Virus record (IMG/VR): IMGVR_UViG_3300044645_002168
Coordinates: 1-28,254 of that record
Length of the DNA: 28,254 bases
Strand: one strand, 5' to 3'
From: a virus
A program made the position numbers and the translations under genes. Below, in pieces: positions 4,724-15,780 of the stretch. Position 1 is the stretch's first letter. Each line of letters opens with the position of its first letter. Below the pieces are notes generated by a model. The model was not told the DNA's origin, did no database searches, and saw only the letters and a program-made list of their open reading frames with translations.

Positions 4724-6196
4724 CTATACCCCACCCCACGACCGCTGCAGCCGCTTCGTGGCCGCCAGCCGCTGCGCAGGGCTCAGCAGCATCCTCAGCA
4801 TCATCTGCCCTTGGGCCCAGCCCGGCTGCAGCCCTAGCGCTGGCTCCAGCACCTTCAACGTCTCATCCTCCATCACGTCAAGGTAGTTGAGCCAGCGGCG
4901 CAGGTCCGGGGCCCGCTGCTCCACCTCCAAGCGGCACCGCTCATTCAGCAGCCGCCGCGCGACCACAGGATGCGCCTGGGCCAGCAGGTCGGGGGTGATT
5001 TCGATCAGCTTGGCGCCGGTCTGGTGCACCTCCGTCTCGATCGGTTCGCCCTCCGTCACCTCACCCGTGTCCGGGTCAATCACTGCCTCGCGCTTCTCGC
5101 GGGGTTCCTGCACCTCGGCATTGAGCTTCCAGTCCATCTCCGCATCAGGCGGCGGCAGCCGGCGCCAGTTGTCCGTATGGTCGATGAGCAGCGCCGCATC
5201 CTTCCCTGGCGCTGGCCTGAGCACCCGCCCGATCAACTGGCGCCACAGCCTGAGGCTGGCAGTGGGCCGCAAGATCTGCAGGCAGGTCGCCTCCGGCACG
5301 TCGAGGCCCTCATCAATCACAGCACAGGCGCAAAGCACCGTGATCTGGCCGCGGCGGAATCGCTCAAAGATCCCCCGTCGCTCAGGCTTCGGGGTGTCGC
5401 CGTCCACCGCTTCGGCGGCGATGCCCTGGTCTCGGTACTGCTCCGCCACCTGGTGGGCATGCGGAACACTCACCGCCACGCAGATGGTCCGCTCACGGTT
5501 CGGGTTGAGCTGCATCCAGTCGCGGACGATCTCGCCTTGGATCTCGACCACCTTGCGCTCCATGTCGGCGGTGGTGAAGTCGCCGCCGCGCTTGCGCATG
5601 CCCCTGGAGTCGATCCGATGCGGGGCGGCGAATAGCCGGTAGCGGCAAAGCTTGCCTGCTGCCATCAGCTCGCCGGCCTCCGGGCCATTGAGCAGCAGAT
5701 CGAACATCTCTTCGTCGCCCAGCCCTTTGCCATCGGGCCTGACCGGCGTGGCAGTGAGCCCGCCAAAGCGCCGCGGCTGCGCCGCCTCGATCACCTTGCG
5801 CCAGGTGGGGGATGGTGCGTGGTGGCATTCATCGGCCAGCAGGGTGCAGCCCGTCAGCTGCTCCAGCAGCTTCAATCGCCGCACCATCGTGGGCACCATG
5901 CCCACCACCACCCGGCGATCCATCCGGGGGCGGCTGCCGGCCGTCACCATGGCGATCACCTGCTGCGGGCCTAGGTGCGCCTGCAGGCTGGCCACGATCT
6001 GCTGCAGAATCTCCTCTCGGTGGCAGATCACCACCACTTGCTCACCACGGGCGAGGGCGCGGCGAACCAGCTCGGCGATGATCACGGTCTTGCCGCAGCC
6101 GGTAGGCCCAACCATGCAGGGCCGCCGCCCGTCAAGCATGGCCGCGTCGCCGGCATCGGCGAGGTGGGTCTGGTAGTCGCGGAGCTGAAAGGGCAT
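4724..6196 (-). CDS. SF2 DNA helicase (UvsW/RecG/RadD-like)
   Basis: A 490-aa two-lobe helicase. Motifs are Walker A GPTGCGKT (residues 30-37), DECH (122-125), TATP (148-151), a second lobe with VLCACAVIDEGLDVPEA (motif V, about 287-303) and QLIGRVLRP (motif VI, 320-328). This is the complete catalytic core of a restriction-type/RadD-like SF2 enzyme that remodels branched DNA using ATP. The open frame reaches upstream to 6433, but the ATG at 6196 gives the N-terminus MPFQLRDYQ typical of the family (Q-motif) and leaves room for the divergent promoter. It is the first gene of the inner leftward operon, followed by RHH, Erf, SSB-like and exonuclease genes. Confidence 0.85.
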   Translation of the reverse strand: MPFQLRDYQTHLADAGDAAMLDGRRPCMVGPTGCGKTVIIAELVRRALARGEQVVVICHREEILQQIVASLQAHLGPQQVIAMVTAGSRPRMDRRVVVGMVPTMVRRLKLLEQLTGCTLLADECHHAPSPTWRKVIEAAQPRRFGGLTATPVRPDGKGLGDEEMFDLLLNGPEAGELMAAGKLCRYRLFAAPHRIDSRGMRKRGGDFTTADMERKVVEIQGEIVRDWMQLNPNRERTICVAVSVPHAHQVAEQYRDQGIAAEAVDGDTPKPERRGIFERFRRGQITVLCACAVIDEGLDVPEATCLQILRPTASLRLWRQLIGRVLRPAPGKDAALLIDHTDNWRRLPPPDAEMDWKLNAEVQEPREKREAVIDPDTGEVTEGEPIETEVHQTGAKLIEITPDLLAQAHPVVARRLLNERCRLEVEQRAPDLRRWLNYLDVMEDETLKVLEPALGLQPGWAQGQMMLRMLLSPAQRLAATKRLQRSWGGV

Positions 6197-8972: not shown

Positions 8973-9035
8973 GTGGCCGGAGATCCCGGCCACCCTCATT
9001 TCAACTGAGGGTGTCAGCTGAGCTGACGCCCTTTT
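8973..9035 (+). terminator. Tandem hairpins and rho-independent terminator after the primase
   Basis: Three stems lie in line: GTGGCCGG/CCGGCCAC (8973-8980/8986-8993), CCCTCA/TGAGGG (8993-8998/9006-9011), and an 11-bp stem (9009-9019 with 9021-9031, one G-T pair) followed by TTTT. The last is a good intrinsic terminator; the second and third share bases and could be alternatives to each other. This ends the replication transcript just before the iteron region. Confidence 0.65.
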
Positions 9036-9414
9036 GGGACACGTCCCAAAGCTGCTGCCCGGCTGTCCCATGTAGCGGCAGGCCTGTCCCTGGCTGCAGT
9101 TTCAGGCGCTGGGGAGGGTGCTGGCATGGGCGGCACTGCAGCGTTTTTGGGACATTTGGGACAGTTTGGGACAGAAGTGTCCCAGAGCAAATCGACTGCG
9201 GCGCAACGGATCTGGGCAGGTTTTGGGACTTTGGGACAGCCCCTAAGAAAATACCTTTTCTATTATTTATTTAAGTATTAGTACCTAGTCCTATGGGTAT
9301 GGATGGAAATGTCCCTAGAGGCGTCCCAATGTCCCAAAACACAGCCAACCTGCTAGTGCTAGTGCGGTTTCTGCTTTGGGACAGCGCTGTCCCAAATGTC
9401 CCAAATGTCCCAAA
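9033..9414. repeat. Iteron cluster around an AT-rich core: candidate replication origin
   Basis: The 9-mer TTTGGGACA occurs exactly at 9033, 9146, 9155, 9165, 9230 and 9375, and its complement TGTCCCAAA at 9330, 9388, 9397 and 9406. There are further partial copies (9042, 9064, 9085, 9178, 9222, 9310, 9323). Copies 9146/9155 and 9388/9397/9406 are tandem; 9375-9396 is a perfect 22-bp palindrome. Most left copies point right and most right copies point left, flanking an AT-rich stretch (about 9244-9300) unlike the GC-rich surroundings. Iterons plus an AT-rich unwinding element beside a primase/helicase gene are the classic layout of an origin; which protein binds the iterons is unknown. The intergenic stretch 8957-9496 is otherwise without a convincing gene. 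Confidence 0.7.
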
Positions 9415-9467
9415 ACCACTTCAACCCTCCGAAATCCGGCTGTTTGGTGCTGATGGGTGCATCTGCC

Positions 9468-9484
9468 GGTAGGATGCCCCTACC
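9468..9484 (+). promoter_or_regulatory. Leader hairpin before the 9497 gene
   Basis: GGTAGG and CCTACC form a 6-bp stem with a 5-nt loop, 12 bases before the GTG start of the next gene. TAGGAT inside it fits a TAnnnT -10, so the element may be promoter, operator or leader hairpin. The upstream GTGCATC also occurs before the leader hairpin of the J-domain gene at 11295. Confidence 0.3.
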
Positions 9485-9496
9485 CGCCGCCATGCC

Positions 9497-9883
9497 GTGA
9501 ACGTCTTGCAGCAGCTGCGCGCCGCCGTGGCCCAGGAAGGCGCCTCGACCACTCCGCCGGTGCCCACACCCGCCCCATCGCTTGCAGCCCCCGCAGCGGC
9601 GCCCCTGCGGCCCTGCCCGTTCACGTTCGGCGACTGGCTGCCCCGCACCGACCCGCAGGCCCACCCCGGCGAGGCTCAGCGTGCAGTGCTGCTGGGTGGC
9701 GTTGTGGTGGCCTGGTGGCGCCGCGAGTGGGTGCCGCCGCTGCCTATCCCCAGCTACAGCCCGCCCCTCACGCTGGAGCCGTACCAGCGCAACGCGATCT
9801 ATCTGCCCGACGGCAGCGAGGTGGAGAGCAGCTGCTGCCCTCAGACTGCTCTGCAGCGACTCGCCGCACGTCTCGGCGCTTGA
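9497..9883 (+). CDS. Hypothetical protein, 128 aa
   Basis: An unrecognised protein. Residues 15-45 are a low-complexity A/P/T stretch, probably a flexible linker. The middle part has a hydrophobic segment with tryptophans (VLLGGVVVAWWRREW, about 64-78) that is too short and too charged at its end to call a membrane helix with confidence. The start is a GTG at 9497. An ATG five bases upstream (9492) opens only a two-codon frame, ATG CCG then TGA, across the real start. It is followed four bases later by the nuclease gene, so the two probably form an operon. Confidence 0.55.
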   Translation: MNVLQQLRAAVAQEGASTTPPVPTPAPSLAAPAAAPLRPCPFTFGDWLPRTDPQAHPGEAQRAVLLGGVVVAWWRREWVPPLPIPSYSPPLTLEPYQRNAIYLPDGSEVESSCCPQTALQRLAARLGA

Positions 9884-9886
9884 TCC

Positions 9887-10210
9887 ATGGCCAACCCCCA
9901 GAAACGCAAGGGCAGCGCCTTTGAGCGGCTGATCGCTGACTACCTGGCCGAGCGCATGCCCTGCGAGCGCATCCCTGCCGGCGCCACCCTTGACCGCGGC
10001 GACCTGTGGACACCGAGCTGCGCAATTCAGGCGAAGTGCTGCCGCACCCTGTCCCTCGGCGCCTGGCTGCGCGATGCGATGGAGCAGCAGGCCAACGCCG
10101 GCAAGCGCCTCCATGCCCTGGTGGTGAAGCGCAAGGGCAGCACGGCCGCGGCCGATCAGTTTGTGGTGATGAGCCTGGAGCAGTTCCGCGAACTGCTGGG
10201 CGAAGTGTGA
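9887..10210 (+). CDS. PD-(D/E)XK Holliday-junction-resolvase-like nuclease
   Basis: A 107-aa protein opening with a basic KRKGSAFERLIADYL (E13), then LDRGDLW (D39) and AIQAKCC (Q48, K50). This E...D...(E/Q)xK spacing is that of the small phage PD-(D/E)XK nucleases annotated as Holliday junction resolvases. The third catalytic acid is replaced by Q, a substitution tolerated in some members. It would cleave branched DNA produced by replication and recombination. The start is the ATG at 9887, four bases after the upstream stop. Length is normal for the family. Confidence 0.65.
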   Translation: MANPQKRKGSAFERLIADYLAERMPCERIPAGATLDRGDLWTPSCAIQAKCCRTLSLGAWLRDAMEQQANAGKRLHALVVKRKGSTAAADQFVVMSLEQFRELLGEV

Positions 10211-10214
10211 CGAT

Positions 10215-10248
10215 CGGTTAACCGGCCACTCATGGCCACCCCAGGCCA
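10215..10248. promoter_or_regulatory. Palindrome and inverted repeats after the resolvase gene
   Basis: CGGTTAACCG (10215-10224) is a perfect 10-bp palindrome. Directly after it, GGCCA and TGGCC recur as overlapping inverted repeats (GGCCA-CTCA-TGGCC, then TGGCC-ACCCCA-GGCCA). There is no T tract, so this is more likely an operator or processing site than a terminator. It lies just upstream of the repeated promoter motif at 10249. Confidence 0.25.
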
Positions 10249-10308
10249 TAAGGCACGCGCTAAGCTATGGGGACAGGAGCCGAGGCGCTCCGCCACTCGC
10301 CGCCAGCC
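10249..10308 (+). promoter_or_regulatory. Repeated promoter and hairpin leader, copy 1
   Basis: The 16-mer TAAGGCACGCGCTAAG (10249-10264) is found again at 11234-11249. Its end forms a TAAGCT -10-like box. The leader then has a 5-bp hairpin GGAGC-CGAGGC-GCTCC (10276-10291) and a CCACTCGCC segment before the ATG at 10309. Copy 2 has the same distances, with a different but still paired hairpin. Confidence 0.5.
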
Positions 10309-10494
10309 ATGACCCCTTCCGCGACCCTTCCCCAAGTCACATGCAAAGACGGCATCCTGTACGACGTTCTCAAGGCCAGCACCTACACCTTCAACGGCCG
10401 TAATCGCGTCAGCTACACCTGCAAGCGCCCCCGCGGCCGCCGTACCTACATCATCATCGGCTACGAAAACGGAACTTTCAGCACCGCCGCCTGA
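10309..10494 (+). CDS. Hypothetical protein, 61 aa
   Basis: An unrecognised small basic protein with a predicted beta-rich body (RNRVSYTCKRPRGRRTYIIIG) and two cysteines far apart in sequence. The frame is open from 10267, but that ATG lies inside the -10/transcription-start zone of the repeated promoter, so the ATG at 10309 is used. It is preceded by the structured leader rather than a Shine-Dalgarno site. The tyrosine/arginine-rich C-terminal part could bind nucleic acid; this is only a guess from composition. Confidence 0.55.
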   Translation: MTPSATLPQVTCKDGILYDVLKASTYTFNGRNRVSYTCKRPRGRRTYIIIGYENGTFSTAA

Positions 10495-10509
10495 CAGCCA
10501 CCCACGCCC

Positions 10510-10528
10510 GCCGGGGGCTCACCCCGGC
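10510..10528 (+). promoter_or_regulatory. Leader hairpin before the 10556 gene
   Basis: GCCGGGG and CCCCGGC form a perfect 7-bp stem with a 5-nt loop, followed by AACCACTCCACC and, 27 bases on, the ATG at 10556. It resembles the hairpin-CCACTC-ATG leaders at 10276 and 11261 in layout, although it lacks the 16-bp promoter repeat. It could also attenuate transcription from the gene before it. Confidence 0.35.
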
Positions 10529-10555
10529 AACCACTCCACCGCTATCCATCCCGCC

Positions 10556-10984
10556 ATGCCCCGCAACGTCAAGCTCCGTTTCCAGCGCAATCGATGCCAT
10601 GCTTCCGGCCCCGGCACTCGCTGGGGCAGCTACGAAGACACCATTGAAATCACCCCGGCATGGGCCGGCAAAGGGATCGCCATCCACAAGCCCGTCGGCT
10701 TTCATGGTGACGACGACCAGCCCTACTTCAAGCAGGTGCAAGGCCTGTGGAATTTGACCCACATCAACAGCGGCCTAGCCATGGGCAGCTGCCACGGCAA
10801 CATGGAGCGCGCCAAGGCCTACGCCAAGCAATGGGACGCCGAGTTCGCCGCGCTGCAGGCCGGCCAGCCCATGGCGCCTGATCGCATCGCCGCATGGAAG
10901 GCGGTCGTCGAAGAGATGCGCATTGAGCCCCCACGCAAGCCCAGCCAACCTGCTCACCGCCGCGGCCACCCCATAACCGCCTGA
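10556..10984 (+). CDS. Hypothetical protein, 142 aa
   Basis: An unrecognised protein with many aromatic residues and histidines in the first 90 residues (GFHGDDDQPYFKQVQGLWN, LTHINSG, GSCHGNMERA), then a helical stretch (ERAKAYAKQWDAEFAALQ) and a proline-rich basic C-terminus. The acidic/histidine stretch might bind metal but matches no motif I know. Its TGA overlaps the ATG of the next gene (TGATG), so the two are translationally coupled. Confidence 0.55.
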   Translation: MPRNVKLRFQRNRCHASGPGTRWGSYEDTIEITPAWAGKGIAIHKPVGFHGDDDQPYFKQVQGLWNLTHINSGLAMGSCHGNMERAKAYAKQWDAEFAALQAGQPMAPDRIAAWKAVVEEMRIEPPRKPSQPAHRRGHPITA

Positions 10985-11205
10985 TGGCCCTCACCAATGC
11001 CGAACACCAGCGCCGCTGGAGGGAACGCCAGGCCGGCCGCCTGCCGCCTGTGGAGCGCCCCTGCTGCACTGCCTGCGGCAAGGTCCACCGTGGCGCCCAT
11101 GGCGCCCTGTGCGCCATCTGCTGGGAGCGCACCACGCGAGAGGGCAAGGCGGCCCACTCCGAACGGGTCAGACGCGCTCAGCGCCGCAAGCGTGACAGAT
11201 TGTGA
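10984..11205 (+). CDS. Small zinc-ribbon-like protein, 73 aa
   Basis: A basic protein with two paired cysteine motifs, CTAC (residues 28-31) and CAIC (43-46), a spacing that suggests one bound zinc. The N-terminus (NAEHQRRWRERQAGR) and the C-terminus (ERVRRAQRRKRD) are arginine-rich helices. Such small zinc proteins occur in many phages and may bind nucleic acid, but the role is unknown. It starts at the ATG overlapping the stop of the preceding gene. Confidence 0.6.
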   Translation: MALTNAEHQRRWRERQAGRLPPVERPCCTACGKVHRGAHGALCAICWERTTREGKAAHSERVRRAQRRKRDRL

Positions 11206-11233
11206 ACTGGCCGCCCTGATGGTCGCCACACCG

Positions 11234-11294
11234 TAAGGCACGCGCTAAGGTATGTGCATCGGAGGCAAGCCCCTCCACCACTCGCCAGCCAGCC
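11234..11294 (+). promoter_or_regulatory. Repeated promoter and hairpin leader, copy 2
   Basis: The 16-mer shared with 10249-10264 lies at 11234-11249 and gives a TAAGGT -10-like box. The leader hairpin is GGAGG-CAAGCC-CCTCC (11261-11276), followed by CCACTCGCC and the ATG at 11295. Compared with copy 1 the fifth stem pair changed from C-G to G-C, so pairing is kept. Distance from repeat end to ATG is 46 bases here and 45 in copy 1. Confidence 0.5.
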
Positions 11295-11792
11295 ATGACC
11301 GCCACCTACTTCGCCGGCCTCAGCACCCCTGAAGAAATCAAGCGCGCCTACCGCGATCTCGCCCGCCAGCACCACCCCGACCTCGGCGGCGACCTGGAGA
11401 CCATAAAGGCGATCAATGCCGCCTACCACGCTGCCCTGAGTGGCCAAAACGGCAAGACCAACGACGGCCGCACCTACAAGTACAACGCCAAGTCGGAGCA
11501 AGAGATCATGGATGTGATCGCTGAACTGCTCAAGATCCCCAACCTGGAGATCAGCCTGATCGGCTACTGGATCTGGGTGCAGGGTGACACCAAGCCCGTC
11601 AAGGATCAGCTCAAGGCTCAGCAGTGCCGCTGGCACTCCGGCCGCAGCTGCTGGTACTGGAAGCCCGCATGGTGCGGCAAGAGCCGCAGCAACCCCGGCG
11701 GGCTGGAGACGCTGGCCGCCAAGTACGGCTATCAGGGTTTTACTAGCGAGGCTCAGCAGCCTGCCCAGCGCCGCCAGCTGGCCGCCACCTGA
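11295..11792 (+). CDS. J-domain (DnaJ-like) protein, 165 aa
   Basis: The N-terminal 50 residues are a J domain: EEIKRAYRDLARQHHPDLGGD with the diagnostic HPD at residues 27-29, then AINAAYHAAL. J domains stimulate DnaK ATPase, so this protein probably recruits the host Hsp70. The C-terminal part (about 85-145: IGYWIWVQGDTKPVKDQLKA, then a W/C-rich CRWHSGRSCWYWKP) is a conserved extension I have seen attached to J domains in mobile elements; its role is unknown. There is no zinc-finger region as in full DnaJ. It is expressed from the repeated promoter as a single gene and ends just before the early/late boundary terminator. Confidence 0.75.
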   Translation: MTATYFAGLSTPEEIKRAYRDLARQHHPDLGGDLETIKAINAAYHAALSGQNGKTNDGRTYKYNAKSEQEIMDVIAELLKIPNLEISLIGYWIWVQGDTKPVKDQLKAQQCRWHSGRSCWYWKPAWCGKSRSNPGGLETLAAKYGYQGFTSEAQQPAQRRQLAAT

Positions 11793-11803
11793 CGGCCATC
11801 CCC

Positions 11804-11870
11804 TACACTGCCCTCGGTGCATGGCGCATCGAGTGGACCCCAACCCTCGCCCTGGCAGGCGGGGGTTTTT
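11804..11870 (+). ncRNA. Short promoter-hairpin-terminator unit (6S/pR'-tR'-like leader)
   Basis: TACACT (11804-11809) fits a TAnnnT -10. Transcription would start near 11816 and give a transcript of about 55 nt. It carries an 8-bp hairpin CTCGGTGC/GCATCGAG (11813-11820/11826-11833, one G-T pair), whose first bases may lie just upstream of the start. An 8-bp terminator hairpin follows (11844-11851/11858-11865, loop CTGGCA) with TTTTT (11866-11870). Placed just before the late genes, it recalls lambda pR'-tR', where an antiterminator releases late transcription. A small RNA is the other option. No Q-like gene is recognised. Confidence 0.45.
11842..11870 (+). terminator. Rho-independent terminator
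   Basis: CCCTCGCC and GGCGGGGG pair over 8 bp with one T-G pair and a six-base loop; a run of five T follows at 11866-11870. It separates the J-domain gene from the late genes. A longer open frame from 11817 would run through this stem, which argues for the downstream GTG start at 11910. Confidence 0.7.
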
Positions 11871-11909
11871 CATGCCTGCTGGCAGACTGTGCGCAGATGC
11901 CCTGCCACC

Positions 11910-12140
11910 GTGAAGCGCGCCGCCACTCCTTGGCACCTGCTAGACCGCTCGACACCGTGGCTGGCCTGGTGGCAGGAGCTGATCCTTAACTGGGTGTCGT
12001 CGTGGAATTCCATCGGCTGCCTGACTGTTGTCAGCGCTGCTGACCCTGAAGAGTTCGCCGCCTGGGATCTGCCGACTGATCTGGAGCTGCAGCGGATGGA
12101 GCTGGAGGAGCTGCTGGCAGTGGGAGAGGATGAGGGGTGA
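11910..12140 (+). CDS. Hypothetical protein, 76 aa (GTG start)
   Basis: An unrecognised protein: a tryptophan-rich N-terminal half (WHLLDRSTPWLAWWQELILN) and an acidic, glutamate/leucine-rich C-terminus (LQRMELEELLAVGEDEG). The start is the GTG at 11910, downstream of the terminator. Its stop overlaps the ATG of the tail-like gene (TGATG), so it is the first gene of the late operon. Its small size, acidity and position before a tail-completion-like gene resemble small phage head/tail adaptor genes, but this is weak. Confidence 0.5.
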   Translation: MKRAATPWHLLDRSTPWLAWWQELILNWVSSWNSIGCLTVVSAADPEEFAAWDLPTDLELQRMELEELLAVGEDEG

Positions 12141-15616: not shown

Positions 15617-15780
15617 GGCGCGTCAGCAGGCCTTGCGAGGTCAGGTATCGCCCGCAGGCCCGCCTCGATGAAGAACGCCCCCATGGCGGAGACGGTGCGA
15701 CCCTCCGCCTTGGCGCGGGCCCTAAGGGCCTCGACGGTGGGCACCGGCAGAACGACCTGGACCCTGATTCCTTGCGCCAT
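15613..15780 (-). CDS. Ribbon-helix-helix protein, 55 aa
   Basis: A leftward gene inside a rightward late region. It has the RHH pattern: strand GIRVQVVLPVPTVEALRARA, a turn (EGRTVS) and helix two AMGAFFIEAGLRA. The frame is open upstream to 15861, but the ATG at 15780 gives the RHH strand right at the N-terminus and lies about 12 bases after a TATACC -10-like box (15797-15792). Its 3' end overlaps the terminase stop by four bases. Facing the HNH gene across overlapping divergent promoters, it probably represses this cassette. Confidence 0.65.
   Translation of the reverse strand: MAQGIRVQVVLPVPTVEALRARAKAEGRTVSAMGAFFIEAGLRAIPDLARPADAP

Follow-up and report, generated by a model that had tools for sequence, protein, structure and literature searches.

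Two copies of a putative mobile expression leader before unrelated small genes in a probable cyanophage

Why should two unrelated small genes of one phage start behind the same promoter and the same leader hairpin? The question is raised by the 28,254-bp virus record IMGVR_UViG_3300044645_002168, the whole stretch of DNA analysed here and referred to as the window. Its plus-strand genes run from a DUF3987 protein (6419) through g9497 and a RusA-like resolvase (9887, PHROG 244) to a cassette region (10309-11792), which is followed by tail and packaging genes. The first cassette gene (10309-10494) encodes a 61-aa protein of unassigned function that has relatives, although it matches nothing in Pfam, PHROG or NCBIfam. 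The second (10556-10984), a 142-aa protein likewise of unassigned function, has other genes in its place in several relatives, and is followed by g10984 (10984-11205), which directly precedes the next leader and whose small Cys-rich product is zinc-ribbon-like (its DZR_2 match is weak and below the cut-off). The third (11295-11792) encodes a 165-aa protein with a DnaJ domain (PF00226, 30 bits against a cut-off of 27.8). All of these lie on the plus strand, and the family scans of the window (Pfam, PHROG) took in ten proteins.

The window terminase matches the GpA families PF05876 and PF20454. Because the nearest named phage to the large terminase (TerL) is Synechococcus phage S-LBS1 (51% over 95%), with S-LBS1 matches among 8 of the 28 window proteins, a cyanobacterial host is likely. 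We infer the host in this way since the searches turned up the leader in no named phage. Among named phages there was no near DNA match to window positions 9300-12000, no match to the leader DNA of a related contig (L122) and no tblastn match to the 61-aa protein or g10984, and the leader was not seen at the 25 S-LBS1 gene starts inspected; the DnaJ-like protein has four matches among named phages, of which two span most of the protein at ~31%. The annotation of S-LBS1 includes a sigma factor of the cyanobacterial RpoD-like kind (L093, 21999-22952).

The two leaders in the window

The first-pass annotation had picked out a duplicated 16-mer, TAAGGCACGCGCTAAG, and this is indeed present at 10249-10264 and 11234-11249; allowing up to three mismatches adds a single weak match on the minus strand (15709-15724), where 0.26 are expected by chance. 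Both copies lie within a direct repeat of 61 nt, whose units (10241-10301 and 11226-11286) are 79% identical and which is the longest repeat family listed in the window. On the plus strand the promoter block of leader A (10249-10266) joins TAAGGCACGCGC to a -10-like hexamer, TAAGCT (10261-10266), and that of leader B (11234-11251) joins the same TAAGGCACGCGC to TAAGGT (11246-11251). Judging by the -10 spacing, transcription is predicted to start at 10273 and 11258, so that the predicted 5′ UTRs occupy 10273-10308 before the ATG of the 61-aa gene (10309) and 11258-11294 before that of the DnaJ-like gene (11295). The hairpins stand at 10276-10291 in leader A (GGAGC-CGAGGC-GCTCC) and 11261-11276 in leader B (GGAGG-CAAGCC-CCTCC). 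After both comes CCACTCGCC (10293-10301 and 11278-11286), which in leader A opens a C-rich spacer, CCACTCGCC..GCCAGCC (10293-10308), without a Shine-Dalgarno sequence. Promoter forms related to leader A, TAASGG..GCGCTANNNT, are found in 21 other viral contigs.

Judged on the window alone, the hairpins do not exceed chance. A TANNNT box followed after 9 nt by a hairpin occurs at four sites, both strands counted, where 30 shuffles average 4.7, which is not significant; the folding energies of the two leaders are no better than those of shuffles (z 0.34 and -0.59), and positions 10273-10311 folded alone favour a structure different from hairpin A. It is therefore the relatives that decide. One reading can be weighed in the window itself, namely that these GC-rich stems within the leader are transcription attenuators or terminators at the start of the transcript. 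Both stems lack a T run, however, and a terminator scan of 10150-11900 finds sites only at 11849-11866 (two overlapping sites; shuffles average 1.5), a weak terminator-like hairpin with a T run on the plus strand downstream of the DnaJ-like gene, which leaves attenuation extremely improbable.

Similar hairpins had also been claimed before the genes at 10556 and 9497. Hairpins are present at both places, but neither is of the same kind as the two leaders. The one before 10556 (10510-10528, plus strand, GCCGGGG-GCTCA-CCCCGGC) represents a separate intercistronic class, here called type C, before which no promoter box was seen by eye in the window and which a pattern scan places in 17 viral stretches. 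It precedes several downstream cassette genes, its inner pair is by eye G-C in the window, G-U in L128 and A-U in L172, and it might guard cistrons at their 3′ or 5′ end after processing. The hairpin before 9497 (9468-9484) is nearly invariant in the relatives that carry it and shows no covariation among them; its one change (L127) breaks the outer pair, and two relatives (L064 and L070) lack the hairpin. As a leader-type element it is not supported.

Occurrence and spacing in related phages

Protein searches, in which the leader was not used, retrieved the DnaJ-like gene from 19 viral loci, the 61-aa gene from 11 (two of them, L091 and L092, weak and partial) and g10984 from 27. Pattern scans gave overlapping sets of 18 stretches for the promoter block, 17 for the intercistronic hairpin and 55 for the spacer pattern, many of the last by chance. 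Inspected by eye, the leader (promoter, 9-nt gap and hairpin) stands before the DnaJ-like gene in all 15 loci that reach far enough upstream, the others ending inside the leader (L077) or inside the gene (L079-L081). It lies downstream of g10984 in 24 of 27 loci, being absent at L167, L168 and L172, and before the 61-aa gene in three of the eight loci with upstream sequence (L082, L083 and L084), being absent at this spacing in L085-L089. These last five hold distant relatives of the 61-aa protein (53-57% identity), three of them in clearly AT-richer contigs. The motif, whose presence in other phages the first-pass annotation had left to be checked, is thus found in them.

The spacing was examined with a hairpin-blind promoter expression, TAA[CG][AG]NNNG[CG]G[CTG]TANNNT, which returned 40 matches distinct over 90 nt, the sequence searched having in large part been selected through the leader or through genes that it fronts. 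A hairpin of at least 4 bp begins exactly 9 nt past the hexamer in 38 of the 40, distributed over the window and 21 other contigs, and in 33 of these it has at least 5 bp; the two matches without a hairpin (L024, L065) resemble chance sites. Stems of at least 5 bp number 0-5 at each of the other offsets from 0 to 39, except for 16 at offset 10, which are interpreted as those stems without their outer pair. For background [TC]ANNNT boxes before ORFs the count is 46-86 of 3356 (~1.4-2.6%) at the other tested offsets and 102, leaders included, at offset 9. A fixed gap behind a -10-like box is what transcription of the hairpin would predict, and a gap of 9 nt places its predicted start at about +4 of the mRNA. 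The predicted +1, the seventh base past the hexamer, is a purine in all 41 distinct leaders (A in 38, G in 3), and their predicted 5′ UTRs measure 32-46 nt.

The same spacing is kept behind unlike promoters. In L111 TTGACG-17-TATTGT occurs twice, its hairpins GGGCC-GCGA-GGTCC and GAGGC-GCGA-GCTTC each lying at 9 nt, and the contig holds a third TATTGT leader; the GAGGC-GCGA-GCTTC hairpin recurs behind another TATTGT box. A CGCCACGGGTTACAGT box in L106 fronts two hairpins, GGGGC-GAGAGA-GCCCC and GAACCG-GAA-CGGTTC, and in L170/L171 the promoter is GTTATCTACGGATTACATT. The -10 boxes of L083, L084, L111, L170 and L171 were chosen by eye with the hairpin in view, and L111 also has exceptions, a leader before the gene at 5520 with a gap of 8 nt and another at 5957 without a clear -10 box. 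The exact 16-mer makes a poor probe, since its occurrences in 37 genome_contigs stretches come from unrelated organisms and are chance-like. A leader model had no match in 38 sources, comprising the 16-mer stretches and S-LBS1, compared with 37 matches in 31 phage sources, many of which are its training sequences and one of which (window 21990) is probably due to chance.

A paired RNA before exchangeable genes

Comparison of hairpins A and B had suggested a shared leader with a compensatory change, the changed pair staying paired, and covariation among relatives had been put forward as the check. An alignment made by sequence alone took in 32 of the 34 distinct leader pieces, L170 and L171 being left out for their composite hairpin with an internal loop. 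In it the five-pair stem pairs in 94.3% of cells, and RNAalifold unaided returns the same five pairs; the 100% pairing of a hand-entered alignment arises by construction, the arms having been entered as paired. The covariation score of 0.403 exceeds all 500 shuffles (0.231±0.023; 0/500 as high) and slid versions reach at most 0.160, but since the relatives are not independent the shuffle counts overstate significance and such figures are not probabilities. Two of five covariation measures fail to stand out, double-change pairs numbering 3 against 2.2 in shuffles (136/500 as high) and further pair types 7 against 5.9 (75/500). On this evidence the relatives bear out the shared hairpin and its compensatory change.

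Tallied over 25 distinct hairpins, with one non-standard pair allowed per stem, pair 3 is A-U in 11, G-C in 9, G-U in 4 and another pair in 1; pair 4 is G-C, G-U, A-U or C-G; and pair 5 is C-G in 10, G-C in 9, G-U in 1 and A-U in 1. Read in the sense of the transcript the wobbles are nine G/U and no A/C, the remaining three non-Watson-Crick pairs being G/A, G/G and C/C, and the imbalance therefore points to RNA of the coding strand. It also bears on the reading of the hairpin as a DNA inverted repeat, the operator of a dimeric regulator overlapping the start site: although the start of the transcribed region is the usual place for an operator, the stem letters vary at pairs 3-6, and G/T mismatches confined to one sense (nine G/T, no A/C) fit coding-strand RNA and not a DNA palindrome. 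An operator is accordingly very improbable.

The loops are diverse in length and sequence (ACG, CGAGGC, CAAGCC, GACGCA and ACAAGAG, for example), and 11 of 12 four-base loops are GNRA. Recurrent GNRA loops, together with the place of the leader as the next element after g10984 in 24 of 27 loci, would suit a binding site through which an RNA-binding protein of phage or host origin (g10984, for example) jointly controls the cassette genes. Such wide loop variation is nevertheless unlike a specific protein site, and in L064, L065, L073, L078, L127 and L134 the leader directly follows rusA with no g10984 between; we regard a protein site as unlikely. Some of the 41 leaders, such as those of L083 and L084, are predicted to mispair with downstream sequence.

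The first-pass annotation had raised a further possibility, that the hairpin hides a GGAGG. In its general form this is a translational switch, in which GGAGG or the start region stays hidden until a factor or temperature opens the stem. Leader B does pair GGAGG with CCTCC, and the 5′ arm contains GGAGG in 15 of 41 distinct leaders; in the other 26, however, it does not, and the GGAGG of leader B (11261-11265) lies 29 nt from the ATG, too far to be the Shine-Dalgarno sequence of that start. Moreover, 40 of the 41 leaders have no Shine-Dalgarno-like 4-mer close upstream of the ATG (the exception is L107_4152), and the last 18 nt before it are 56% C and 22% A. Hiding of GGAGG is thus unsupported and a switch very improbable.

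What follows the leader is exchanged between phages. Altogether 49 ORFs in 29 protein clusters are fronted by it. Of ten relatives set against the window, eight resemble it across the first leader as far as 10313-10339, 4-30 nt past the ATG at 10309, and in most of these eight the similarity resumes near 10490-10560, at the intercistronic hairpin, and at 10977-10995, at g10984; L064 and L075 are differently arranged. For one gene, beginning MTATFKFF, the leader is of type B in L097, in L122 it combines a TAACGG promoter and a GAAA hairpin, and in L127 and L134 it has a TTGCGCTC..TAGGAT promoter with a GAGA hairpin, the promoter in the last two being that of the DnaJ gene of L064 joined to a different hairpin and gene. 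In L098 a GAGA hairpin stands behind a type B promoter. Going by these sequences, promoter, hairpin and gene recombine with one another, and the leader stays while the small gene behind it is swapped. Otherwise unrelated cassette proteins (L009, L011, L064, L070, L097 and L098) begin alike, with MTAT or MTSHATAA, as if recombination joints extended into the first codons.

That the leader is common to unrelated genes, with similarity ending at or just past the ATG, would also be expected of a recombination module akin to the PeSLs taken up below, in which the repeat is kept only as homology for cassette exchange and the hairpin has no RNA role. Homology alone would preserve letters, but neither covariation nor a fixed 9-nt gap behind unlike promoters, and we find such a module decidedly unlikely. 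The hairpin is instead, with high confidence, an RNA structure that has been conserved at a constant distance from the promoter, and the cassettes that carry it are modular.

Proposed role and known counterparts

The best explanation, to which, taken together with the role proposed for the hairpin, we assign a probability of roughly 0.5, is that the window holds two copies of a mobile expression leader for exchangeable small genes. Such a leader would consist of a promoter, an RNA hairpin whose first base is near the fourth of the transcript and, before the ATG, a spacer rich in C and free of Shine-Dalgarno sequence. The hairpin may shield the 5′ end of the mRNA from 5′-end-dependent decay, through 5′ sensing by RNase E or through RNase J, and may act as an insulator by blocking pairing of the 5′ end with whichever gene is plugged in, so that cassettes would be expressed reliably. 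The anatomy of the leader gives this pair of functions about an even chance; a hairpin preceded by only three bases at the 5′ end, whose letters are free and whose loops are stable, has the look that we would expect of a 5′-end shield. In E. coli a 5′ hairpin can stabilise bla mRNA and impedes RppH, and RNase E prefers an accessible 5′ monophosphate (PMC3997798). Cyanobacteria possess both RNase E and RNase J but lack a close homologue of RppH (PMC10989914), and for want of the latter 5′-end protection may matter less there than in E. coli. More tentatively, we can picture a portable, insulated start unit (promoter, 5′-capping hairpin at +4 and spacer free of Shine-Dalgarno sequences) that takes up new small genes, probably for host takeover or counter-defence, the recurrence of one geometry behind several unlike promoters suggesting selection on the RNA 5′ end across probable cyanophages, perhaps as infection raises 5′-end-directed RNA decay; this wider picture is possible but doubtful.

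The proteins behind the leaders give few clues to function. The representatives of 28 clusters, the DnaJ cluster being left out, yielded a single Pfam match (E 0.0011, limit 0.01), four function-less PHROG families each matching one of them, and no PADLOC match.

We place the leader among the mobile promoter-leader cassettes of phages; it resembles PeSLs in gene shuffling and the ompA-type 5′ stem-loop in form and is assigned to neither. PeSLs are reportedly the promoter early stem-loops of T4-like phages treated by Arbiol et al. in 2010 and Comeau et al. in 2014, the latter said to call them, in its title, promoter-terminator motifs of T4-like myoviruses. They have been tied to gene shuffling between related phages (PMC4503421), and in the leader phages, too, a promoter with a stem-loop is repeated before unrelated exchangeable genes. 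Unlike PeSLs as that title presents them, the leader has its stem-loop at a set distance past the -10 box and without a T run, and the stem covaries; unlike the T4-like phages that carry PeSLs, the window phage has a GpA-type terminase with TerL nearest to S-LBS1. The E. coli ompA and papA mRNAs bear 5′-terminal stabilising stem-loops that can be transferred to bla mRNA (PMC3997798). At its predicted +4 (from the -10 box) the leader hairpin would likewise lie at or near the 5′ end, but it is a phage-borne module before at least 29 protein clusters and not part of a host gene, and any stabilisation by it is putative.

In cluster K mycobacteriophages many unrelated non-structural genes start with the repeated SAS/ESAS, the SAS being a conserved 13-bp sequence within a few nucleotides of the start codon and about half having an upstream inverted repeat (PMC3203893). 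In the phage leader, by contrast, it is structure and not sequence that is kept. At two mismatches the SAS, GGGATAGGAGCCC, is found three times in the window where 1.04 are expected, which is near chance, and the match at 10270-10282 stops 26 nt short of the ATG. The structured RNAs manA, wcaG and PhotoRC-I/II of cyanophages and cyanobacteria, several in potential 5′ UTRs (PMC2864571), are tied to particular kinds of gene, unlike the leader. Rfam gave no match in the window at the gathering threshold, and below it, over 10200-11310, two snoRNA models only, far under their cut-offs. The literature searched, which left out subscription papers, yielded no published account of the leader.

The leader provides a marker for small accessory genes that annotation leaves unnamed in probable cyanophages, and a portable leader that works before any gene would serve as an expression part. 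It also makes the protection of phage mRNAs by 5′ hairpins in cyanobacteria a testable question; a cyanophage factor induces the RNase E of its Prochlorococcus host, and antisense RNAs are credited with shielding phage transcripts from that enzyme (PMC9692554).

Two features beside the cassette region may be recorded. The mechanically called ORF at 11817-12140 has its start, 11817, ahead of the terminator-like hairpin at 11849-11866, and the true start may be GTG 11910. On the other side, window positions 9023-9416 contain TTTGGGACA / TGTCCCAAA repeats that look like iterons and adjoin an AT-rich patch, an origin-like arrangement, and repeats recur at the matching place in relatives, as TTGAAATGGG in L066/L014, GTGACCAG in L127 and GTAACG in L068.
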